Below are positions 888 through 29,159 of a DNA stretch of 43,184 bases, piece by piece. Each line of letters begins with the position of its first letter. Positions within the stretch are counted from its first letter, which is position 1. Location: assembly GCA_023246095.1 (NCBI GenBank), contig JAHFJA010000007.1:1-43184 (forward strand). The letters are read 5' to 3'. Origin of the DNA: a bacterium (lineage in GTDB: Bacteria; Patescibacteriota; Patescibacteriia; JACQRZ01). Under the pieces are notes generated by a model. It did not search any database. It was not told the origin of the DNA and saw only the letters and a program-made list of their open reading frames with translations. The translations under genes and the position numbers were made by a program.

Positions 888-1709
888 ATGAAACTTCTTG
901 TTATTGATGGTCACAACTACTTATTTCGGTCGTATTATGGTGTGCCACCCGATCAGAGAGATGGGACAACTCCTCATCTTGTCTATACGTTTTTGGCCTC
1001 ATTGCGTCGGATGGTCAATGTATTAGAACCTACACACATCGCGATCGTATTTGATTCACAGACGGGAACCGCAGCAAAGAAAGTACAAAGAGAGGAATAC
1101 AAGGCAACGCGTCAGGAGCACGACGCGGATGTTTTTGAACAAAAGAAAATTTTAGACATGGTGTTAAAGAAAATTGGTATCTTTACTCTCGAGCATCCCG
1201 ACTATGAAGGGGATGACCTTATTGGGAGTATCGCCGTTCAATGTGTATCAAAAGGTCTGCCGACTCTCATAGCTTCAGCGGATTTTGATTTCTCACAATT
1301 AGTAACGTCTGATATCTCGCTTCTGCGAGAACATAAAGGTGAATATGACATTGTGACTCCTCAACGAGTGGAAGAACTATTTGGTATCAAGCCGAGCCAG
1401 TATGTTGATTACGTCTCGCTTAAAGGCGATAGTAGTGATAATATTAAAGGGATTAAGGGGGTCGGCCCAAAAGCGGCGAGTCAATTGATCAACCAGTGGG
1501 GGAGTTTGGAACAAATATTTGAAAACATTGATTTTCTCCCCGAAAAATGGGCACGCTTATTCGAACACGAACACCAACGAATAATACAGGTGCGTGATTT
1601 TTTAAGAATTAATCATTCTATAACACTACTTCCTTCCTCATCACAATCATTTGAATTTTCGCGAGCCTCTCTAATGGCTCCGACACGATCGTTTTTGGAT
1701 ACCATATGA
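888..1709 (+). CDS. Stand-alone 5'-3' exonuclease / flap endonuclease
   Basis: The 273-aa product matches the N-terminal nuclease domain of DNA polymerase I without any polymerase part. It starts with the LLVIDGHNYLFR motif, carries the metal-binding acid cluster YEGDD (canonical YEADD) near residue 104, ADFDFSQLV (canonical GDKDxxQLV, both aspartates kept), and GDSSDNIKGIKGVGPKAA, the last metal-site aspartates plus the H3TH DNA-binding motif. All expected catalytic acids are present. The family removes RNA primers and flaps during lagging-strand maturation and repair. A separate exonuclease is common in reduced genomes. Its TGA stop overlaps the next ATG (ATGA at 1706-1709), which implies translational coupling to the CAP-domain gene. 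Confidence 0.9.
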   Translation: MKLLVIDGHNYLFRSYYGVPPDQRDGTTPHLVYTFLASLRRMVNVLEPTHIAIVFDSQTGTAAKKVQREEYKATRQEHDADVFEQKKILDMVLKKIGIFTLEHPDYEGDDLIGSIAVQCVSKGLPTLIASADFDFSQLVTSDISLLREHKGEYDIVTPQRVEELFGIKPSQYVDYVSLKGDSSDNIKGIKGVGPKAASQLINQWGSLEQIFENIDFLPEKWARLFEHEHQRIIQVRDFLRINHSITLLPSSSQSFEFSRASLMAPTRSFLDTI

Positions 1710-3079
1710 AAAATTTTATTAAAGGGTATTGGGGGTATTTTTTTGTCATGTGCGTCATGGTCGGGGTTTTCTCACTCGCTGGGGTAACGGATGCTGCAAC
1801 AATGGCACAGCGTATGGCGGGGCGCATACTTTTGCAAGTGCAGTCGAAGGGTGAAGGATGGTATGTTCATCCAACAGAATTGCATCGATATTATCTTGGG
1901 CGGCCAAACGATGCTTTTTCAATTATGCGTTCAACGGGGCTTGGGGTCACCAACGCCAATCTGAATCGTATTGCGGTTTCCGGGTCAACTGGCATAGGAG
2001 ACACAACCTTTGCCAAAAGTCTGTCGGGAAGGATCTTATTACAAGTACAATCGAATGGCGAGGCATGGTATGTCTATCCAGTTAATCTAAAACGATATTA
2101 TCTGGGACGTCCTACTGATGCATTCGCGCTAATGCGCACATTGGGTTTAGGTATTACGGATAGTGATATTTCTACTATTCCTGTTCATGTCGATTCTTCT
2201 GTTCCTGTACCGGTAAGTACGACAGTACCCGATACAACTCTTACTGATAATTATGAAGCTCAGCGCACAACGATTCTTACCGACCTTAATGTACAGCGTA
2301 ATTCGCATGGCCTTGCTTCGGTAAAACTTTCAGCTCTATTGTCCCAGGCTGCTCAGAATCATAGTGACGATATGACATCAAAAGGATATTACTCTCTTAC
2401 CTCGCCTGATGGAACAAAAGCGACCGAGCGTGTGGCAGTGGTTGGGTATAAAGCTCACAGTGTGGCGGTCTGGCTCGATTCAGTTCCTAATGGCGCGTCA
2501 GCAGTTATTTCTCAGTGGATGACGAAGTCACCTGCCAATTTTTCGACATTAGCGTTAAGTAATGATTATCGTGAAATAGGCGTCGGAGTTGCCACTGTTA
2601 ACGGTACGTCTGCTTATGTCATTATCTTTGCCATGTCCGATGCAGATTATTTCAGCACTTTCACCGATGCCCTTGCCGATCTTAGTAAAGTGCGCAATGA
2701 TATGCTCGTCCGAGTGAATCAGGAACGTCAAAATGTGGGTCTATCACCTCTTGTCTTTAACGATAAACTTAACATTGCTTCACAAGGCCACACTGATGAT
2801 ATGCTTGCTCAAGGGTATTACAGTCATAATTCTCTTGATGGCCGCACTCCTGCCATGCGCATTACGGCTACAGGGTATCTCTATCAAGCAATGGGGGAAA
2901 ATATTGCAAAAGGCCAGCGAACTGTGAAGGAAGTCATGGATGATTGGATGGCAAGTCCGGAGCATCGCGCAAACATTCTTAATCCGTTTTATGAAGATAT
3001 AGGGATAGGACTTTCATTTGGAAAGAACACGAACGGGTATGAGATCTTATGGGGACAAGACTTTGGAAAACCACGATAA
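1706..3079 (+). CDS. Secreted protein with two GRILLQV repeats and two CAP domains
   Basis: The 457-aa protein has a signal peptide (residues 1 to about 30). Two copies of a roughly 52-aa repeat follow (residues 39-89 and 107-159; DNA 1820-1972 and 2024-2182), each with GRILLQVQ, G..WYV.P, YYLGRP.DAF and GLG(V/I)T. Two CAP/SCP domains follow. The second (about 330-455) keeps the family residues His362, Glu398 in GENI, and His420 in SPEHRANIL. The first (about 183-310) keeps NHSDDM but has SPANFSTL where the second histidine should be and no GEN motif, so it is probably degenerate. CAP proteins of bacteria are extracellular with varied or unknown roles. The same repeat occurs twice each in the proteins at 26059 and 27387. 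Its start overlaps the exonuclease stop. Confidence 0.85.
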   Translation: MKNFIKGYWGYFFVMCVMVGVFSLAGVTDAATMAQRMAGRILLQVQSKGEGWYVHPTELHRYYLGRPNDAFSIMRSTGLGVTNANLNRIAVSGSTGIGDTTFAKSLSGRILLQVQSNGEAWYVYPVNLKRYYLGRPTDAFALMRTLGLGITDSDISTIPVHVDSSVPVPVSTTVPDTTLTDNYEAQRTTILTDLNVQRNSHGLASVKLSALLSQAAQNHSDDMTSKGYYSLTSPDGTKATERVAVVGYKAHSVAVWLDSVPNGASAVISQWMTKSPANFSTLALSNDYREIGVGVATVNGTSAYVIIFAMSDADYFSTFTDALADLSKVRNDMLVRVNQERQNVGLSPLVFNDKLNIASQGHTDDMLAQGYYSHNSLDGRTPAMRITATGYLYQAMGENIAKGQRTVKEVMDDWMASPEHRANILNPFYEDIGIGLSFGKNTNGYEILWGQDFGKPR

Positions 3080-5291: not shown

Positions 5292-5984
5292 ATGGCACAA
5301 AGTGAAGTATGGGAGAGGGAATATAAACAACAATTGCTTGTCACTCGGGGTGAACAACCACAGGCAAGTGTTGCACGATTTTTTAAAACATTACGCAAAG
5401 AGAAGATCACACTCGAAGGGGTATATGTTCTTGATTTGGGGTGCGGGATAGGTCGTAACGCGCTTTATTGTGCACAGCAAGGTGCAATAGTAGTTGGTAT
5501 TGAGATTTCAAAAGAAGCATTGAAGATCGCAAAGGAACGGATGAGAGAGGCAAAAGTGAAGGTTGAATATGTCCATGGTGACATCGGGTCAGTACTCCCT
5601 TTTGGTGACAATTTTTTTGATGTTATCTTGGATGTAACTTCGTCAAATTCACTTTCAGAATCGGAACGGGCGATATATCTTCAAGAGACTACACGCGTCT
5701 TGCAGCCCGATGGCCGTATGTTTGTTCGTGCTTTATGTAAAGATGGGGATGTAAACGCAAAACGACTTCTCAAAGACCATCCGGGAAAAGAAAAAGACAC
5801 CTATATCATGCCTGAATTAGGTCTGGTAGAGAGAGTATTTTCTCGTGAGGATTTTCTTACTGCATACAAACCGTATTTTAATGTTTATTTTTTTGAAAAA
5901 GAAACACACTACTCAATGTTTAATGGTACACGATATCGGCGGAATTACTGGATTGCGTATATGAAGAAGAATTTAGATGCCTAG
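5292..5984 (+). CDS. Class I SAM-dependent methyltransferase
   Basis: The 230-aa protein has the Rossmann methyltransferase motif I VLDLGCGIGRNA (about residues 47-58), motif II with an acidic end of strand two (VGIEIS), and a later DVILDVTSSNSL segment equivalent to motif IV. It belongs to the Methyltransf_11/25 group, which methylates small molecules, lipids or proteins; nothing in the sequence names the substrate. The N-terminal 40 residues (EVWEREYKQQLL) are helical and may form a substrate cap. It ends the operon begun at 4211 and its 3' end overlaps the convergent ABC-F gene by 12 bp, so no terminator lies between them. Confidence 0.85.
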   Translation: MAQSEVWEREYKQQLLVTRGEQPQASVARFFKTLRKEKITLEGVYVLDLGCGIGRNALYCAQQGAIVVGIEISKEALKIAKERMREAKVKVEYVHGDIGSVLPFGDNFFDVILDVTSSNSLSESERAIYLQETTRVLQPDGRMFVRALCKDGDVNAKRLLKDHPGKEKDTYIMPELGLVERVFSREDFLTAYKPYFNVYFFEKETHYSMFNGTRYRRNYWIAYMKKNLDA

Positions 5985-7400
5985 TTCGTCTACCTCTCCC
6001 AACTGCTGCAAAAAATACCGATCATGTGATACAACCAAAATGCCTCCTTGGTAATCTCTTAATGCGTGCTCAATTGCTTCTCGCGATGGAATGTCGAGAT
6101 GGTTCGTCGGTTCATCAAGAATAAGAAGATCGTGTTCTTTCTGCATCAATTTCGCAAATGATAATCGTACTCGTTCACCAAAACTCAACGACTCAATTTT
6201 CTTGTAAATATCGTCGTTTGAGAAGAGAAATCCTCCTAGTACCGATCGTGCCCTTTCCAGCGTGAGAGATGTGTTGCTTCTTTGTATTTCCTCAAGCACG
6301 TTTTTTGCCGGGTCAAGAGTCTCGTTGGTCTGACTGAAATATCCCACACAAACATTATCGCCGATTTTCACTTCACCAGCGTCAGGCAATACTTCACTCA
6401 TTACAATTTTGAGCAGTGTAGACTTTCCGCTACCGTTTTGTCCTGATATACAAAGTCGCTCGTGTCCGCGTACCTCAAAAGAGATATCACGAAATAATTC
6501 ACGACCCGCAAATGATTTTTCAAGAGATTCAACCCTAAGAAGCAGCTTGCCAGTGTGTGTACTTCCCCCAAACCGAGCTGACTTCATGGTTTTGTTGTCG
6601 CTAGGTTTTACAATCGCTTTGTCGTAAATTTCACGTTGGATTCGCTTTTCCATTTGTCGTACTTGTCGACCTTTCGCAGGATCAACAAAGATGCTTGCTT
6701 CTTGGCGTTTGAGCGCAAGCCATTGCTCTAGCCGTCGTTTTTCTCGTTGTTGAAGTTCATAATCCTTTTCCCATTGCGCACGGCGTGCGCCACGTTCCTC
6801 TAGATACGCATCATAATTGCCTACATACTGTTCGATAGTGTGATTTGCAGGATCAAACTCAATAATACGACTTACAGTAGCATTAAGAAACGATCGGTCA
6901 TGAGAAACAATCAATGCGCTTCCAGAAAACTTCCGCACAAATGATTCAAGCCAGTCAATTCCTTCGCTGTCTAAATTGTTAGTCGGTTCATCCATGAGAA
7001 GGAGGGTGGGTTGTGCACTGAGGGTCTTTATGAGTGCGAGGCGGGTTTTCTGACCACCACTTAATGAACCTATCGTTTGATTGACGTCCATATCGCCAAG
7101 ACCGAGTTTGCCTAACAATGCCCATCCTTGTGGATGAGAGGGAAGTTCAAGATAATCTTCAAGAGTGCTGTTGTTGGGGGCATCTATCGTTTGTGGAAGG
7201 TATCCGACGATTTCCCGATCGAGCGTGATAGTGCCCGCATCTGGTTTCATTTGACCGGCGATTAGTTTGAGTAAAGTTGATTTGCCCGATCCGTTTTGGC
7301 CTATAATACCTACTTTCTCGCCCGCGCGTACGATAAAATTCAAGTCTTGAAAGAGAGACTTGCCGTAAATAGACGCACTGAGGTTGTTGATAACGATCAT
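5973..7400 (-). CDS. ABC-F family ATPase (ribosome-associated)
   Basis: The 475-aa protein has two ABC ATPase domains and no membrane segments. Domain 1 has GQNGSGKST, SLSGGQKTRLAL and LLMDEPTNNLD; domain 2 has GQNGSGKST, SLSFGERVRLSF and LLILDEPTNHLD. A charged linker of about 80 residues lies between. ABC-F proteins bind the ribosomal E site; some are translation factors and others protect against antibiotics. This sequence does not say which. The ATG at 7400 begins the normal MIVINNLSASIYG start, without an SD. An in-frame TTG at 7460 with GAGG nine nt upstream would add 20 residues and would be read through a terminator hairpin in the leader. See the findings on this leader. Confidence 0.9.
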   Translation of the reverse strand: MIVINNLSASIYGKSLFQDLNFIVRAGEKVGIIGQNGSGKSTLLKLIAGQMKPDAGTITLDREIVGYLPQTIDAPNNSTLEDYLELPSHPQGWALLGKLGLGDMDVNQTIGSLSGGQKTRLALIKTLSAQPTLLLMDEPTNNLDSEGIDWLESFVRKFSGSALIVSHDRSFLNATVSRIIEFDPANHTIEQYVGNYDAYLEERGARRAQWEKDYELQQREKRRLEQWLALKRQEASIFVDPAKGRQVRQMEKRIQREIYDKAIVKPSDNKTMKSARFGGSTHTGKLLLRVESLEKSFAGRELFRDISFEVRGHERLCISGQNGSGKSTLLKIVMSEVLPDAGEVKIGDNVCVGYFSQTNETLDPAKNVLEEIQRSNTSLTLERARSVLGGFLFSNDDIYKKIESLSFGERVRLSFAKLMQKEHDLLILDEPTNHLDIPSREAIEHALRDYQGGILVVSHDRYFLQQLGEVDELGI

Positions 7401-7419
7401 ATGATTATAATTATATAGT

Positions 7420-7447
7420 AAAAAAGCCCGGCGAGTGCCGAGCTTTT
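7420..7447 (-). terminator. Terminator hairpin inside the ABC-F leader (possible attenuator)
   Basis: On the minus transcript an 11-bp stem (7447-7437 with 7432-7422, one G-U pair, loop 7436-7433) is followed directly by six U (7425-7420). It stands 20 nt upstream of the ABC-F ATG and downstream of the predicted promoter at 7615-7587, so it can end transcription before the gene. On the plus strand the same pair is C-A, so the hairpin favours the minus transcript. A second hairpin (7487-7480 with 7452-7445, 8 bp) abuts it. Confidence 0.65.
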
Positions 7448-7586
7448 CTGTATAGTTCAAGGATTTTTACCTCATTATGTACAGAAATATTCGCCCAGCA
7501 CAAAACAACCTGCAGTCTTTGCTGATCGAATAAAATCTACGAGTAGAATTTTTTTTACTTCCATAAAATTTTGGTAACTTGATAAG

Positions 7587-7615
7587 ACTATAGCGTAGAT
7601 TTAAAAAAAATGCAA
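7587..7615 (-). promoter_or_regulatory. Promoter for the ABC-F leader transcript
   Basis: On the minus strand TTGCAT (7615-7610) and TATAGT (7592-7587) are 17 nt apart. The predicted start near 7580 gives a leader of about 180 nt. It stands back to back with the plus-strand promoter at 7626-7654, 10 bp between the two -35 boxes. Confidence 0.65.
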
Positions 7616-7625
7616 CATCGCCAAC

Positions 7626-7654
7626 TTGACAGAATCGAAAAAATAGTGTAGAGT
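7626..7654 (+). promoter_or_regulatory. Promoter for the small peptide gene and ABC exporter
   Basis: TTGACA (7626-7631) and TAGAGT (7649-7654) are 17 nt apart. The -10 ends 32 nt before the ATG of the 48-codon frame at 7687. Confidence 0.65.
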
Positions 7655-7686
7655 AGGAATCACTGATTATTGTCAGCCTAAATTAT

Positions 7687-7833
7687 ATGACCAACAACAC
7701 GAACAACTTGATGTTGACGCAACTCCTAGGAGCTGTGAATACCAACGCTATGAGCGGTGGTGTGCTTGTTGCTGTTTCTGTACAGGCTGCCCCAAAACAG
7801 GGAGGATATTTCTTAATGAACATGAAGCCATAA
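7687..7833 (+). CDS. 48-aa peptide upstream of an ABC exporter
   Basis: A 48-codon frame lies between the promoter at 7626-7654 and the exporter gene. The peptide is Asn-rich at the start (MTNNTNNL), has a hydrophobic middle with SGG near residues 23-25 and QGG at 38-40, and ends FLMNMKP; it has no cysteine. There is no SD, but the ATG sits 32 nt after the -10 box, exactly as at three clearly real genes here. Two readings are open: a secreted or modified peptide exported by the neighbouring transporter (SGG could be a double-glycine-like cleavage site), or a leader peptide whose translation controls the hairpins at 7803-7888. I do not recognise a homologue. Other frames across this stretch look like chance. 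Confidence 0.5.
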   Translation: MTNNTNNLMLTQLLGAVNTNAMSGGVLVAVSVQAAPKQGGYFLMNMKP

Positions 7834-7888
7834 TGGCTATACATCATCGTATTTATCAAGAAATATCCTGCCAAAAGCAGGATTTTTT
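7803..7888 (+). promoter_or_regulatory. Competing hairpins and terminator before the ABC exporter
   Basis: A perfect 12-bp pair AGGATATTTCTT (7803-7814) and AAGAAATATCCT (7858-7869) encloses a small AGCCA/TGGCT hairpin (7826-7830 with 7834-7838) whose loop is the TAA stop of the peptide gene. The 3' arm overlaps the first half of a 7-bp terminator stem ATCCTGC/GCAGGAT (7865-7871 with 7877-7883) followed by TTTTT (7884-7888). The two structures share 7865-7869 and cannot both form fully, the usual logic of a transcription attenuator. Confidence 0.65.
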
Positions 7889-7929
7889 AATTGCACATTG
7901 AAAATATTATAAATTGGAGGATAAAGGGA

Positions 7930-26058: not shown

Positions 26059-27192
26059 ATGTATCGATTTTCCCATATGATACGATTTATTTCAGCTGTT
26101 GTTCTCACGTTCGGTTTATTGTTCGTATCCTTTCAGTCAGTAAGCGCGGCGGAAAATACTGCTGCTAAGTTGTCCGGAAGAATTCTGTTGCAAGTACAGG
26201 ACAAAGGGCAAGCGTGGTATGTGAACCCTGTGGATAAGCAAGTGTACTACATGGGCCGACCTGCTGACGCATTTGCACTCATGAAACGCCTGGGTACCGG
26301 TATCAGCAACAATGATCTTCGAAAGATTCCGGTGGCTCCTATGAACTATTATGGAACCCCTGATACTGATCACGACGGGCTATCTGACGCATTTGAACAA
26401 ATTTACGGCACTGACATGAATAATCCTGATACGGATTATGATGGTATCACTGATTGGTCGGAGCTTAATGGTGGTACTACTCCATTTGGTTTGGGTACAC
26501 AAACGTACGATAAAGCATTCGCAAAGGCACAAAAAGGAAAAATATTTATTCAAGTACAACAGGGCGGAGCAGCATGGTATGTTAATCCCGTTGATTTGAA
26601 AGCATATTATCTAGGTAAGCCACTCGATGCGTTCAATGTGATGCGTGCTCTTGGGTTGGGTGTCAGTAATGAGACGCTGGCTCAAGCTCAGGGAAGATAC
26701 GTGGCGGTTCCCCCTCTCCAGTATGCACCGTACCCCTATAACCCTTACTATCCGTACAATCCTAATGTTCCTTACATTCCGTATTATCCAAATCCTACCC
26801 CTGTAACCCCTTCACCTTCACCGTACTACAGCTCACGATGGTATGTCCGCATGTATAATATCGATGATGTAGGTACCGCAATGGTTAATGGAAGCACTGC
26901 AGCGACCACTTCCTATGGGGGAGATTCAGGGTTTGTCGACATCACTAAGATGATTCATACAGGAGACAACAGTATTAACTTCAAGCTCCATAACAATGTT
27001 GGAGGGTATACATGGGGTTTCCAGATCAAAAAGGATAATACTATCGTATTTGATGAAAAAGCAGGTACTGCAGGCTCTTACGGGGCAAACAACAATGACG
27101 GGAGTATGCAATACCAAGATGTCTATAACAAAAACATTACCGTAAACGAATCAGGGGTCCTGACGATGAATTCATTGCAGCCCACCTACTAG
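26059..27192 (+). CDS. Secreted surface protein, two GRILLQV repeats, calcium-type loops, one C-terminal module
   Basis: The 377-aa protein has a signal peptide (cleavage near residue 30; ATG at 26059, alternative at 26077). Repeat one covers 39-91 (GRILLQVQ, AWYVNP, YYMGRP). Then come DTDHDGLSDAFEQIYGTD and NPDTDYDGITDWSE (101-135), loops like thrombospondin type 3 or dockerin calcium sites. Repeat two covers 159-209. A Tyr/Pro-rich linker (219-258) leads to a roughly 110-aa module (260-370: RWYVRMYNIDD, DITKMIHTGDNSI, YTWGFQIKKDNTIVFDE). The paralogue at 27387 has the same order but three such modules. The repeats' function is not known to me; cell-surface attachment or adhesion is inference. 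Confidence 0.82.
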   Translation: MYRFSHMIRFISAVVLTFGLLFVSFQSVSAAENTAAKLSGRILLQVQDKGQAWYVNPVDKQVYYMGRPADAFALMKRLGTGISNNDLRKIPVAPMNYYGTPDTDHDGLSDAFEQIYGTDMNNPDTDYDGITDWSELNGGTTPFGLGTQTYDKAFAKAQKGKIFIQVQQGGAAWYVNPVDLKAYYLGKPLDAFNVMRALGLGVSNETLAQAQGRYVAVPPLQYAPYPYNPYYPYNPNVPYIPYYPNPTPVTPSPSPYYSSRWYVRMYNIDDVGTAMVNGSTAATTSYGGDSGFVDITKMIHTGDNSINFKLHNNVGGYTWGFQIKKDNTIVFDEKAGTAGSYGANNNDGSMQYQDVYNKNITVNESGVLTMNSLQPTY

Positions 27193-27386: not shown

Positions 27387-29159
27387 ATGTATAGATTTCT
27401 TTATATGAAACGGTTTATTACAGCTTCTGTTTTGACGCTAGGCCTGTTTTTCGTCTCGTTCCACCCGGCACAGGCGGCAACAGTTGCCTCTAATTTATCG
27501 GGAAGAATCCTTTTGCAGGTCCAAGACAAGGGGCAGGCATGGTATGTCAACCCTGCCAATAAAATGGCATATTACATGGGTCGTCCTACTGACGCTTCGG
27601 AACTCATAAAGCGTCTTGGTACGGGTATTACGGACTATGATCTTCGTAAGATCCCTGTGGCACCTATGAACTACTATGGGACTCCTGACGCTGATCGAGA
27701 TGGTATCTCAGACGCGTTTGAACAAGTCTACGGTACCGATATGAATAATCCTGACACGGATTATGACGGTTACCCTGACGTAGTAGAATTAAATAACGGC
27801 TATAGTCCGTTTGGTGCGGGAACACAGTCCTATGACATGGCGTTCGCCAAGTCACAAAAGGGAAAGATTCTCATCCAGGTACAGCGCGGAGGAGCAGCAT
27901 GGTATGTGAATCCTACAAACTTGAAGGCGTACTACTTAGGTAAGCCACAAGATGCATTTAACGTAATGCGTGCACTTGGTTTGGGGGTATCAAACGAGAC
28001 CTTGGCTCAAATTCCTGGAACATATATTGGGAATTACCCATACTACACCGCAACAGCGGATCGTTACTCTTTGCGAATTTTTAACACTGATAACGTGGGG
28101 ACTGCAGATGTCAACGGAGTTCGCACTTTTAGCAACTCATACGGCACTGATCGCATCGAAGATATCACCAATGTAATGCACTCAGGGTCAAATACTATAC
28201 ATTTCAAAATGTATAATGACACCGGATCATATACATGGGGATTTGAGGTGAAAAAGAACGGTCGCGTTATTTTCTCCGAAAGTGCCGGTACTGTCGGGCA
28301 AGTCGGTGCAAACTATAACGACCTCACAAAAACATACCAGGACGTGTACGATAAGATGGTCACCCTGAGTGACTCAGGGGCAGTGACCGTTACTGGTTAT
28401 CAAGCACCTACCCCTACACCTCCTCCACCACCAACGACCCGTTGGTACATGCGTGTGTATAATGCCGATGATAAGGAATCAGCGGTAATCAACAATCAAT
28501 ACACCTATACCACGACATTTGGGCAAGATGCGGGATACACTGATATCACCAATCTTCTCCATTCAGGCAACAATACGATTGATTTCAAGACGTGGAACGA
28601 AGTCGGAGCATATGCATGGGGCTTCCAGATCTTGAAGGACAACACTGTTGTATTTGATGAACATGAAGGTACTGCCGGCACCATGGGTGCTTACAGTAAC
28701 GACGGTTCAAAACCAAACCAGTTTGTGTATAACAAGACCGTCACGATAAACCAGTCAGGATTGGTGAGTGTTCGGAACAATATTGTTCCCACACCTCCAA
28801 CTCGATGGTATATCCGCGAGTACAATGGTGATGATAAGCAGACTATGGTGATTAACAACCAATATAGCTATGCTACCACCACATTTGGTCAAGACAGTGG
28901 ATTTATTGATATCACCGATCGCCTTCATGCTGGCAACAACACGCTTGATTTCAAGACGTGGAATGATCAGGGGGGATACACGTGGGGATTTCAGATTCGG
29001 AAAAATAATACGGTTGTATTTGATGAAAATGCAGGCGTAGCAGGAATTGTCGGTGCTTATAACAACGACGCTTCGAGATCAAACCAATACATTTATAACA
29101 AAACCCTCACACTTAATGAGGCAGGAGTTGCAAGTGTACACAACAATCTCAGCTTCTAA
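27387..29159 (+). CDS. Secreted surface protein, two GRILLQV repeats and three C-terminal modules
   Basis: The 590-aa protein is a paralogue of the previous one. It has a signal peptide to about residue 30, repeat one (39-91), calcium-type loops DADRDGISDAFE and NPDTDYDGYPDVVE (101-135), and repeat two (159-209). Then come three copies of the C-terminal module at 226-336, 352-462 and 473-584, joined by Pro/Thr linkers (PTPTPPPPPTT). Copies two and three are closest to each other (INNQY, TTFGQD, FKTWN, YNKT), so the last duplication was recent. The module has alternating strands like a carbohydrate-binding jelly roll. Its promoter and terminator are its own. Confidence 0.83.
   Translation: MYRFLYMKRFITASVLTLGLFFVSFHPAQAATVASNLSGRILLQVQDKGQAWYVNPANKMAYYMGRPTDASELIKRLGTGITDYDLRKIPVAPMNYYGTPDADRDGISDAFEQVYGTDMNNPDTDYDGYPDVVELNNGYSPFGAGTQSYDMAFAKSQKGKILIQVQRGGAAWYVNPTNLKAYYLGKPQDAFNVMRALGLGVSNETLAQIPGTYIGNYPYYTATADRYSLRIFNTDNVGTADVNGVRTFSNSYGTDRIEDITNVMHSGSNTIHFKMYNDTGSYTWGFEVKKNGRVIFSESAGTVGQVGANYNDLTKTYQDVYDKMVTLSDSGAVTVTGYQAPTPTPPPPPTTRWYMRVYNADDKESAVINNQYTYTTTFGQDAGYTDITNLLHSGNNTIDFKTWNEVGAYAWGFQILKDNTVVFDEHEGTAGTMGAYSNDGSKPNQFVYNKTVTINQSGLVSVRNNIVPTPPTRWYIREYNGDDKQTMVINNQYSYATTTFGQDSGFIDITDRLHAGNNTLDFKTWNDQGGYTWGFQIRKNNTVVFDENAGVAGIVGAYNNDASRSNQYIYNKTLTLNEAGVASVHNNLSF

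Follow-up and report, generated by a model that had tools for sequence, protein, structure and literature searches.

Candidate leader-peptide attenuators ahead of divergent ABC-F and ABC exporter genes in a Patescibacteria genome

Results

Two divergent ABC genes, each preceded by a leader

The window (the whole stretch of 43,184 nucleotides analysed here, contig JAHFJA010000007.1) carries genes for an ABC-F ATPase and an ABC exporter half-transporter that diverge from a single promoter region (Table 1). An initial annotation of this DNA had described back-to-back promoters with -35 boxes 10 bp apart, and reading of the sequence bears this out; the exporter promoter was returned by a promoter scan, and that of the ABC-F gene, which lies under the scan threshold, was read by eye and matches at only 3/6 positions of the -35 and 5/6 of the -10 box. 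The intrinsic terminators claimed ahead of both protein genes could likewise be located, and between promoter and gene each leader also contains a short ORF, the one ahead of the ABC-F gene having been missed in the initial annotation. Neither leader ORF has a Shine-Dalgarno sequence, as is the case for 18 of the 21 window gene starts checked (between 888 and 41260), the other three carrying a Shine-Dalgarno-like motif.

Table 1. Features of the divergent ABC-F/exporter locus, in window coordinates
Feature	Position	Strand	Basis or remark
ABC-F ATPase, 475 aa, ribosomal-protection-like	5973..7400	-	NF000355, 448.7 bits against a cut-off of 380
Intrinsic terminator, AAAAGCUCGGC-ACUC-GCCGGGCUUUUUU	7420..7447	-	-16.4 kcal/mol; hairpin 7447-7422, T-run to 7420
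Region 3, GCUCGGCAC, terminator 5' arm and loop	7435..7443	-	antiterminator partner of region 2; covarying in orthologues
Leader peptide ORF, 29 aa, MEVKKILLVDFIRSAKTAGCFVLGEYFCT, then stop	7475..7564	-	sequence
Antiterminator inner 5' arm, UUUCUGUA	7480..7487	-	pairs with UACAGAAA (7452-7445), around the stop codon
Region 2, antiterminator outer 5' arm, GUGCUGGGC	7493..7501	-	leader-peptide codons V22-L23-G24
Region 1, anti-antiterminator 5' arm, UAUUCGAUCAGCA	7520..7532	-	pairs with 7500-7488 (UGCUGGGCGAAUA); -16.2 kcal/mol
ABC-F promoter	7587..7615	-	-35 TTGCAT 7615-7610, 17 nt, -10 TATAGT 7592-7587
Exporter promoter	7626..7654	+	-35 TTGACA 7626-7631, 17 nt, -10 TAGAGT 7649-7654; promoter scan, 10/12 matches
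Leader peptide ORF, 48 aa, MTNNTNNLMLTQLLGAVNTNAMSGGVLVAVSVQAAPKQGGYFLMNMKP, then stop	7687..7833	+	last codons form the antiterminator arm
Antiterminator 5' arm, AGGAUAUUUCUU	7803..7814	+	lies in leader codons 39-43; all 12 positions pair with 7858-7869 (AAGAAAUAUCCU)
Antiterminator 3' arm, AAGAAAUAUCCUGCC	7858..7872	+	overlaps the terminator 5' arm
Intrinsic terminator, AUCCUGC-CAAAA-GCAGGAUUUUUU	7865..7888	+	-9.7 kcal/mol; hairpin 7865-7883, T-run to 7888
Exporter Shine-Dalgarno, GGAGG	7916..7920	+	strong in attenuated orthologues too, although 3/21 window genes checked have one
ABC exporter half-transporter, 599 aa	7930..9729	+	Pfam ABC_membrane and ABC_tran

The protein families originally named hold for both products. 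The ABC-F protein has tandem ABC domains and scores above the NCBIfam equivalog cut-off for the ribosomal-protection-like family, and falls far under the curated cut-offs of the named resistance subfamilies (Vga, Sal, Msr, Lsa, OptrA and others; e.g. 330.7 against 725 for Vga). The nearest solved chain is 8buu_9, and among the nearest are those of 6ha8 and 8buu, annotated as ExpZ, which we take to be the VmlR and VmlR2 ribosome complexes. The exporter matches ABC_membrane and ABC_tran; the Pfam search found no N-terminal C39 peptidase domain, and a C39 bacteriocin-exporter reading was rejected on this ground. Generic bacteriocin-export models match the exporter at sub-cutoff scores. Protection by the ABC-F protein and efflux by the exporter are the presumed roles.

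A longer ABC-F reading frame from TTG 7460 was dismissed as an artefact that runs through the terminator, the true start being the ATG at 7400. Just 5' of this ATG, TATATAATTATAAT (7417-7403, minus strand) is a possible -10 element of a near-leaderless transcript that would bypass the leader; it has no good -35 and is absent in G001, a relative from the same genus. Elsewhere in the window, three predicted proteins (1706-3079, 26059-27192 and 27387-29159) have in common SGRILLQVQ-type repeats near a signal-peptide-like N terminus and make up a paralogous family. The Patescibacteria-like assignment of the initial annotation fits the ~0.99 Mb genome, in which uL30 and bL9 are missing; absence of these two proteins is a known trait of Patescibacteria/CPR.

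Mutually exclusive pairings in both leaders

Terminator-like hairpins in this AT-rich DNA are not by themselves above chance (5 found against 4.3 expected in shuffled sequence). Unlike these hairpins alone, the folding of whole leaders exceeds chance, with z = -4.0 on the plus and -5.0 on the minus strand and none of 200 shuffles equally good. An Rfam scan of the window returned no family and no riboswitch, and PADLOC gave generic ATPase matches only.

In each leader, the 5' arm of an antiterminator missed in the initial annotation is made up of the final ORF codons; this antiterminator is mutually exclusive with the terminator, and its formation depends, computationally, on the modelled ribosome position. 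For the ABC-F leader, the outer helix GUGCUGGGC:GCUCGGCAC encloses the inner helix UUUCUGUA:UACAGAAA, giving -22 to -23 kcal/mol, and a third hairpin, UAUUCGAUCAGCA:UGCUGGGCGAAUA (region 1:2), is able to hide the antiterminator arm. The exporter antiterminator, AGGAUAUUUCUU:AAGAAAUAUCCU, reaches -22.4 kcal/mol as a duplex and -28 kcal/mol as a hairpin, against -9.7 kcal/mol for the terminator.

Ribosomes were modelled by masking ~29 nt per position and then folding each leader. With the transcript cut before the terminator 3' arm, the leader codons hold the terminator 5' arm at a probability of 0.76-0.91 in 7/9 leaders, the values for the window being 0.83 (ABC-F) and 0.85 (exporter); modelled ribosomes free this arm mainly when placed over the last ~10-13 codons, and only partially in the exporter relative G017. 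At equilibrium, the terminator probability of the full exporter leader is 0.03 in the absence of a ribosome and rises to 0.9-1.0 once one covers codons 36-48. The full ABC-F leader gives 0.99 at almost all ribosome positions, with a dip to ~0.8 at S14 (in the window and in G001), and because the full-length equilibrium fold favours the terminator nearly throughout, antitermination ahead of the ABC-F gene must be kinetic.

Antiterminator energies were also compared with those obtained on permuting the leader codons. For the window leaders this gave p = 0.0015 (ABC-F) and p = 0.0005 (exporter), and for the relatives G001, G252, G017 and G692 values of 0.003, 0.023, 0.0035 and 0.004, respectively, weaker values being found for G270 (0.064), G059 (0.05), G656 (0.055) and G545 (0.062). 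Under synonymous-codon shuffling the window ABC-F leader gave 0.0005, and the exporter leaders were weaker (window 0.081, G270 0.083, G692 0.24). The 7-10 nt terminator arm tested alone likewise gave weak p-values for the exporters, since exporter antiterminators extend upstream of this arm. Overall, an antiterminator arm at the 3' end of the short ORF that pairs with the terminator arm is present in 8/9 leaders, and weakly in two more.

Conservation and covariation among relatives

Orthologues were sought in 144 relatives and subsequently in class and phylum samples of ~380 genomes each. ABC-F orthologues with leader and terminator were found in G001 (76% identity), G252 (48%) and G656, and their leader peptides are 29-30 aa long, with FVLG at residues 21-24 invariant across the four ABC-F leaders, that of the window included. 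The window and G001 peptides are of equal length and 72-73% identical (dN 0.18, dS 0.49). A profile search of genome contigs with the ABC-F alignment yielded, among the matches listed, only generic ABC-F proteins of 31-42% identity, which were not used. G411 was excluded from the comparison because its upstream region looks like a contig chimera: the 5' part of its contig (L180:1-480) is very GC-rich, unlike the ABC-F gene joined to it.

The initial annotation had proposed covariation of the stems in related genomes as a check, and such covariation is seen in the outer helix of the ABC-F antiterminator. The Val-Leu-Gly codons and the terminator arm read GTG CTG GGC with GCTCGGCAC in the window and G001, and GTA TTG GGA with GCTCGATGC and GTA TTG GGG with GCCCGATAC in G252 and G656, so that two pairs are changed on both sides (G-C/A-U and C-G/U-A), at synonymous positions in the codons for Val and Leu. 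Pairing in this helix is retained in 92.6% of cells, compared with 15-42% in slid controls; as there are three distinct sequences only and 50/500 shuffles did as well, it is the slid control and the codon placement that carry the covariation evidence. Within the inner helix, a C-G pair is exchanged for G-C between the window and G001. Since its codons form the antiterminator arm, FVLG may be conserved as an RNA arm rather than as a peptide. G545, which is near in the ABC-F tree, has a leader peptide of another sequence, and its analogous antiterminator is of borderline significance (0.062).

On the exporter side, a leader ORF of 36-43 aa precedes the orthologue in each of G017, G059, G270 and G692, along with a terminator and an antiterminator built from the 3' codons of that ORF. 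Together with the window exporter they make up a single clade with support of 100/100, in which 5/5 members are attenuated, and leaders with an antiterminator of this kind are absent from every other exporter in the tree. G452, with a leader-like ORF and a terminator, was left out of this count because it has no antiterminator and falls outside the attenuated clade. The same scan of unrelated ABC loci found the short-ORF-plus-terminator leader to be rare. The exporter leader peptides are mostly dissimilar, although those of the window and G270 both carry GGVL...GGxxFL, and between G017 and G059 dN (0.17) is not below dS (0.11), i.e. there is no purifying selection; this argues that it is translation of the ORF, and not a secreted product, that matters, as proposed for bmrB.

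Three further observations concern the surroundings of exporter relatives. In G270 a tRNA-Asn gene (L062:1070-1144) is found directly ahead of the exporter attenuator, the leader peptide of which is rich in Asn; this, and the MTNNTNN start of the window leader peptide (7687-7707), may be due to chance or may point to sensing of asparagine tRNA. In G201 (L067, ~1.1-1.5 kb, reverse strand), an unrelated short ORF with promoter-like and terminator-like sequences precedes a non-attenuated exporter orthologue, and in G689 a tmRNA gene (L158:1020-1438) is immediately upstream of an exporter relative.

The initial annotation had read the pairing as suggesting a single inducible locus; the comparison gives no support for one conserved unit. 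Exporter orthologues occur in 10/381 class genomes and ABC-F orthologues in 4/381; no exporter orthologue turns up in the family's 10 remaining genomes, the G001 ABC-F gene has no adjoining exporter, and exporter orthologues elsewhere have no ABC-F gene beside them. As the pairing is found in no other genome examined, the divergent layout is particular to the window genome, and the patchy, single occurrence of the orthologues is consistent with horizontally acquired accessory genes.

Discussion

A model for attenuation and its alternatives

We propose, at a probability of approximately 0.75, that in this ultra-small bacterium the ABC-F gene and the exporter gene are each controlled by their own ribosome-mediated transcription attenuator. 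Polymerase starting from either promoter would first transcribe the short leader-peptide ORF. During normal translation, ribosomes would cover the last codons, i.e. the antiterminator 5' arm, allowing the terminator to fold and transcription to stop before the gene; a ribosome stalled earlier in the leader would leave this arm free to capture the terminator 5' arm, with read-through into the ABC-F or exporter gene as the result. A stall exactly at FVLG would, in such a model, favour termination. In the ABC-F leader the region 1:2 hairpin could, as in VmlR, also sequester the antiterminator arm. The inducibility by ribosome-mediated attenuation suggested in the initial annotation is thus predicted for both genes, from the antiterminators, the covariation and the orthologues. 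The stall would most plausibly be caused by a ribosome-targeting antibiotic bound to the ribosome, and we consider an antibiotic to be, on balance, the probable signal.

The attenuators may instead be real but respond to general slowing of translation, or to a shortage of some amino acid or of a charged tRNA, perhaps asparagine in the case of the exporter. The Asn-containing start of the window exporter leader and the Asn-rich G270 leader beside its tRNA-Asn gene would suit the latter, and the unconserved G017 and G059 peptides are what a general translation-rate sensor would predict. However, no single-codon run is common to the exporter leaders, those of G017, G059 and G692 not being Asn-rich, the ABC-F leaders have none, and the genes downstream encode an ABC-F protein and an exporter rather than biosynthetic or tRNA-charging functions; we regard such a signal as unlikely.

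Constitutive partial terminators, or terminators relieved by a ligand or RNA-binding protein independently of translation, have a low probability in our assessment. Premature terminators with an unknown trigger are common in bacteria (PMC2965389), and nearly every equilibrium fold favours the ABC-F terminator. Against both possibilities stand the placement of the antiterminator arm at the 3' end of the short ORF in 8/9 leaders, where it pairs with the terminator arm, the restriction of covariation to synonymous sites, and the lack of any Rfam riboswitch match. It is very improbable that the 48-aa ORF encodes a secreted, RiPP- or bacteriocin-like peptide with a double-glycine motif that is exported by the adjoining transporter, the terminator merely lowering exporter expression. 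Its GG motifs (AMSGG), its position directly before an ABC exporter and the sub-cutoff bacteriocin-export matches invite this reading, which was nevertheless rejected: the exporter has no C39 match, a peptide-family search with the 48-aa peptide found none either, the peptides before orthologous exporters are mostly dissimilar even though the leader and terminator arrangement persists, and the last codons of the ORF are the antiterminator arm.

Relation to known systems and implications

The proteins and architectures that come closest are ones known to be inducible by antibiotics, and by analogy the arrangement would correspond to attenuation of the trp/VmlR/BmrB kind. The vmlR leader of Bacillus subtilis (PMC9226507) similarly places an ABC-F gene after a leader ORF and anti-antiterminator, antiterminator and terminator hairpins, and antitermination follows when a ribosome stalls in that ORF. 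The vmlR ORF encodes just three residues (MIN) and is contained in the first hairpin, whereas the window ORF is 29 aa long, contains the FVLG motif and contributes its 3' codons to the antiterminator. The bmrB-bmrCD system of the same species, which is induced by ribosome-targeting antibiotics, resembles the exporter side (PMC4191407): its leader peptide is comparable in length (53 aa, that of the window having 48 aa), and a multidrug ABC exporter follows under the control of an antiterminator and a terminator. The bmrB terminator lies within the ORF, however, and the exporter is a two-gene heterodimer, in contrast to a terminator that starts 31 nt past the stop and a single half-transporter gene in the window. 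The streptococcal msrD/mefA system (PMC10314930) likewise brings together genes for efflux and for an ABC-F protein, with a separate leader-peptide transcription attenuator for each. There, both genes belong to a single operon, and the MsrDL terminator is blocked directly by the stalled ribosome; in the window the two genes diverge, and switching would rely on an antiterminator located within the leader ORF.

Ribosome-mediated transcription attenuation is known from Firmicutes (Bacillus, Streptococcus). A search of the open-access literature found no description of attenuators of this type in Patescibacteria, and a study that surveyed CPR genomes for resistance genes mentions neither ABC-F genes nor attenuation (PMC8651080). 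What appears to be new is the occurrence in this phylum, together with the families of leader peptide, the recruitment of FVLG codons into an antiterminator arm and the divergent twin arrangement.

More tentatively, and with somewhat less than even confidence, we suggest that Patescibacteria have drug-sensing leader-peptide families of their own, FVLG before ABC-F genes and a second type that defines one exporter clade, in which the same codons would both form the antiterminator arm and serve as a sensor, whether by nascent peptide or by codon, and that two independent switches on one divergent promoter region here provide a compact, two-pronged antibiotic response. If they operate as predicted, the leaders would imply that in these reduced bacteria the coupling of transcription to translation is tight enough for attenuation, that no dedicated protein regulator is needed to sense ribosome stress, and that inducible, probable resistance genes are retained; the leaders themselves are short, cis-only candidates for inducible switches.
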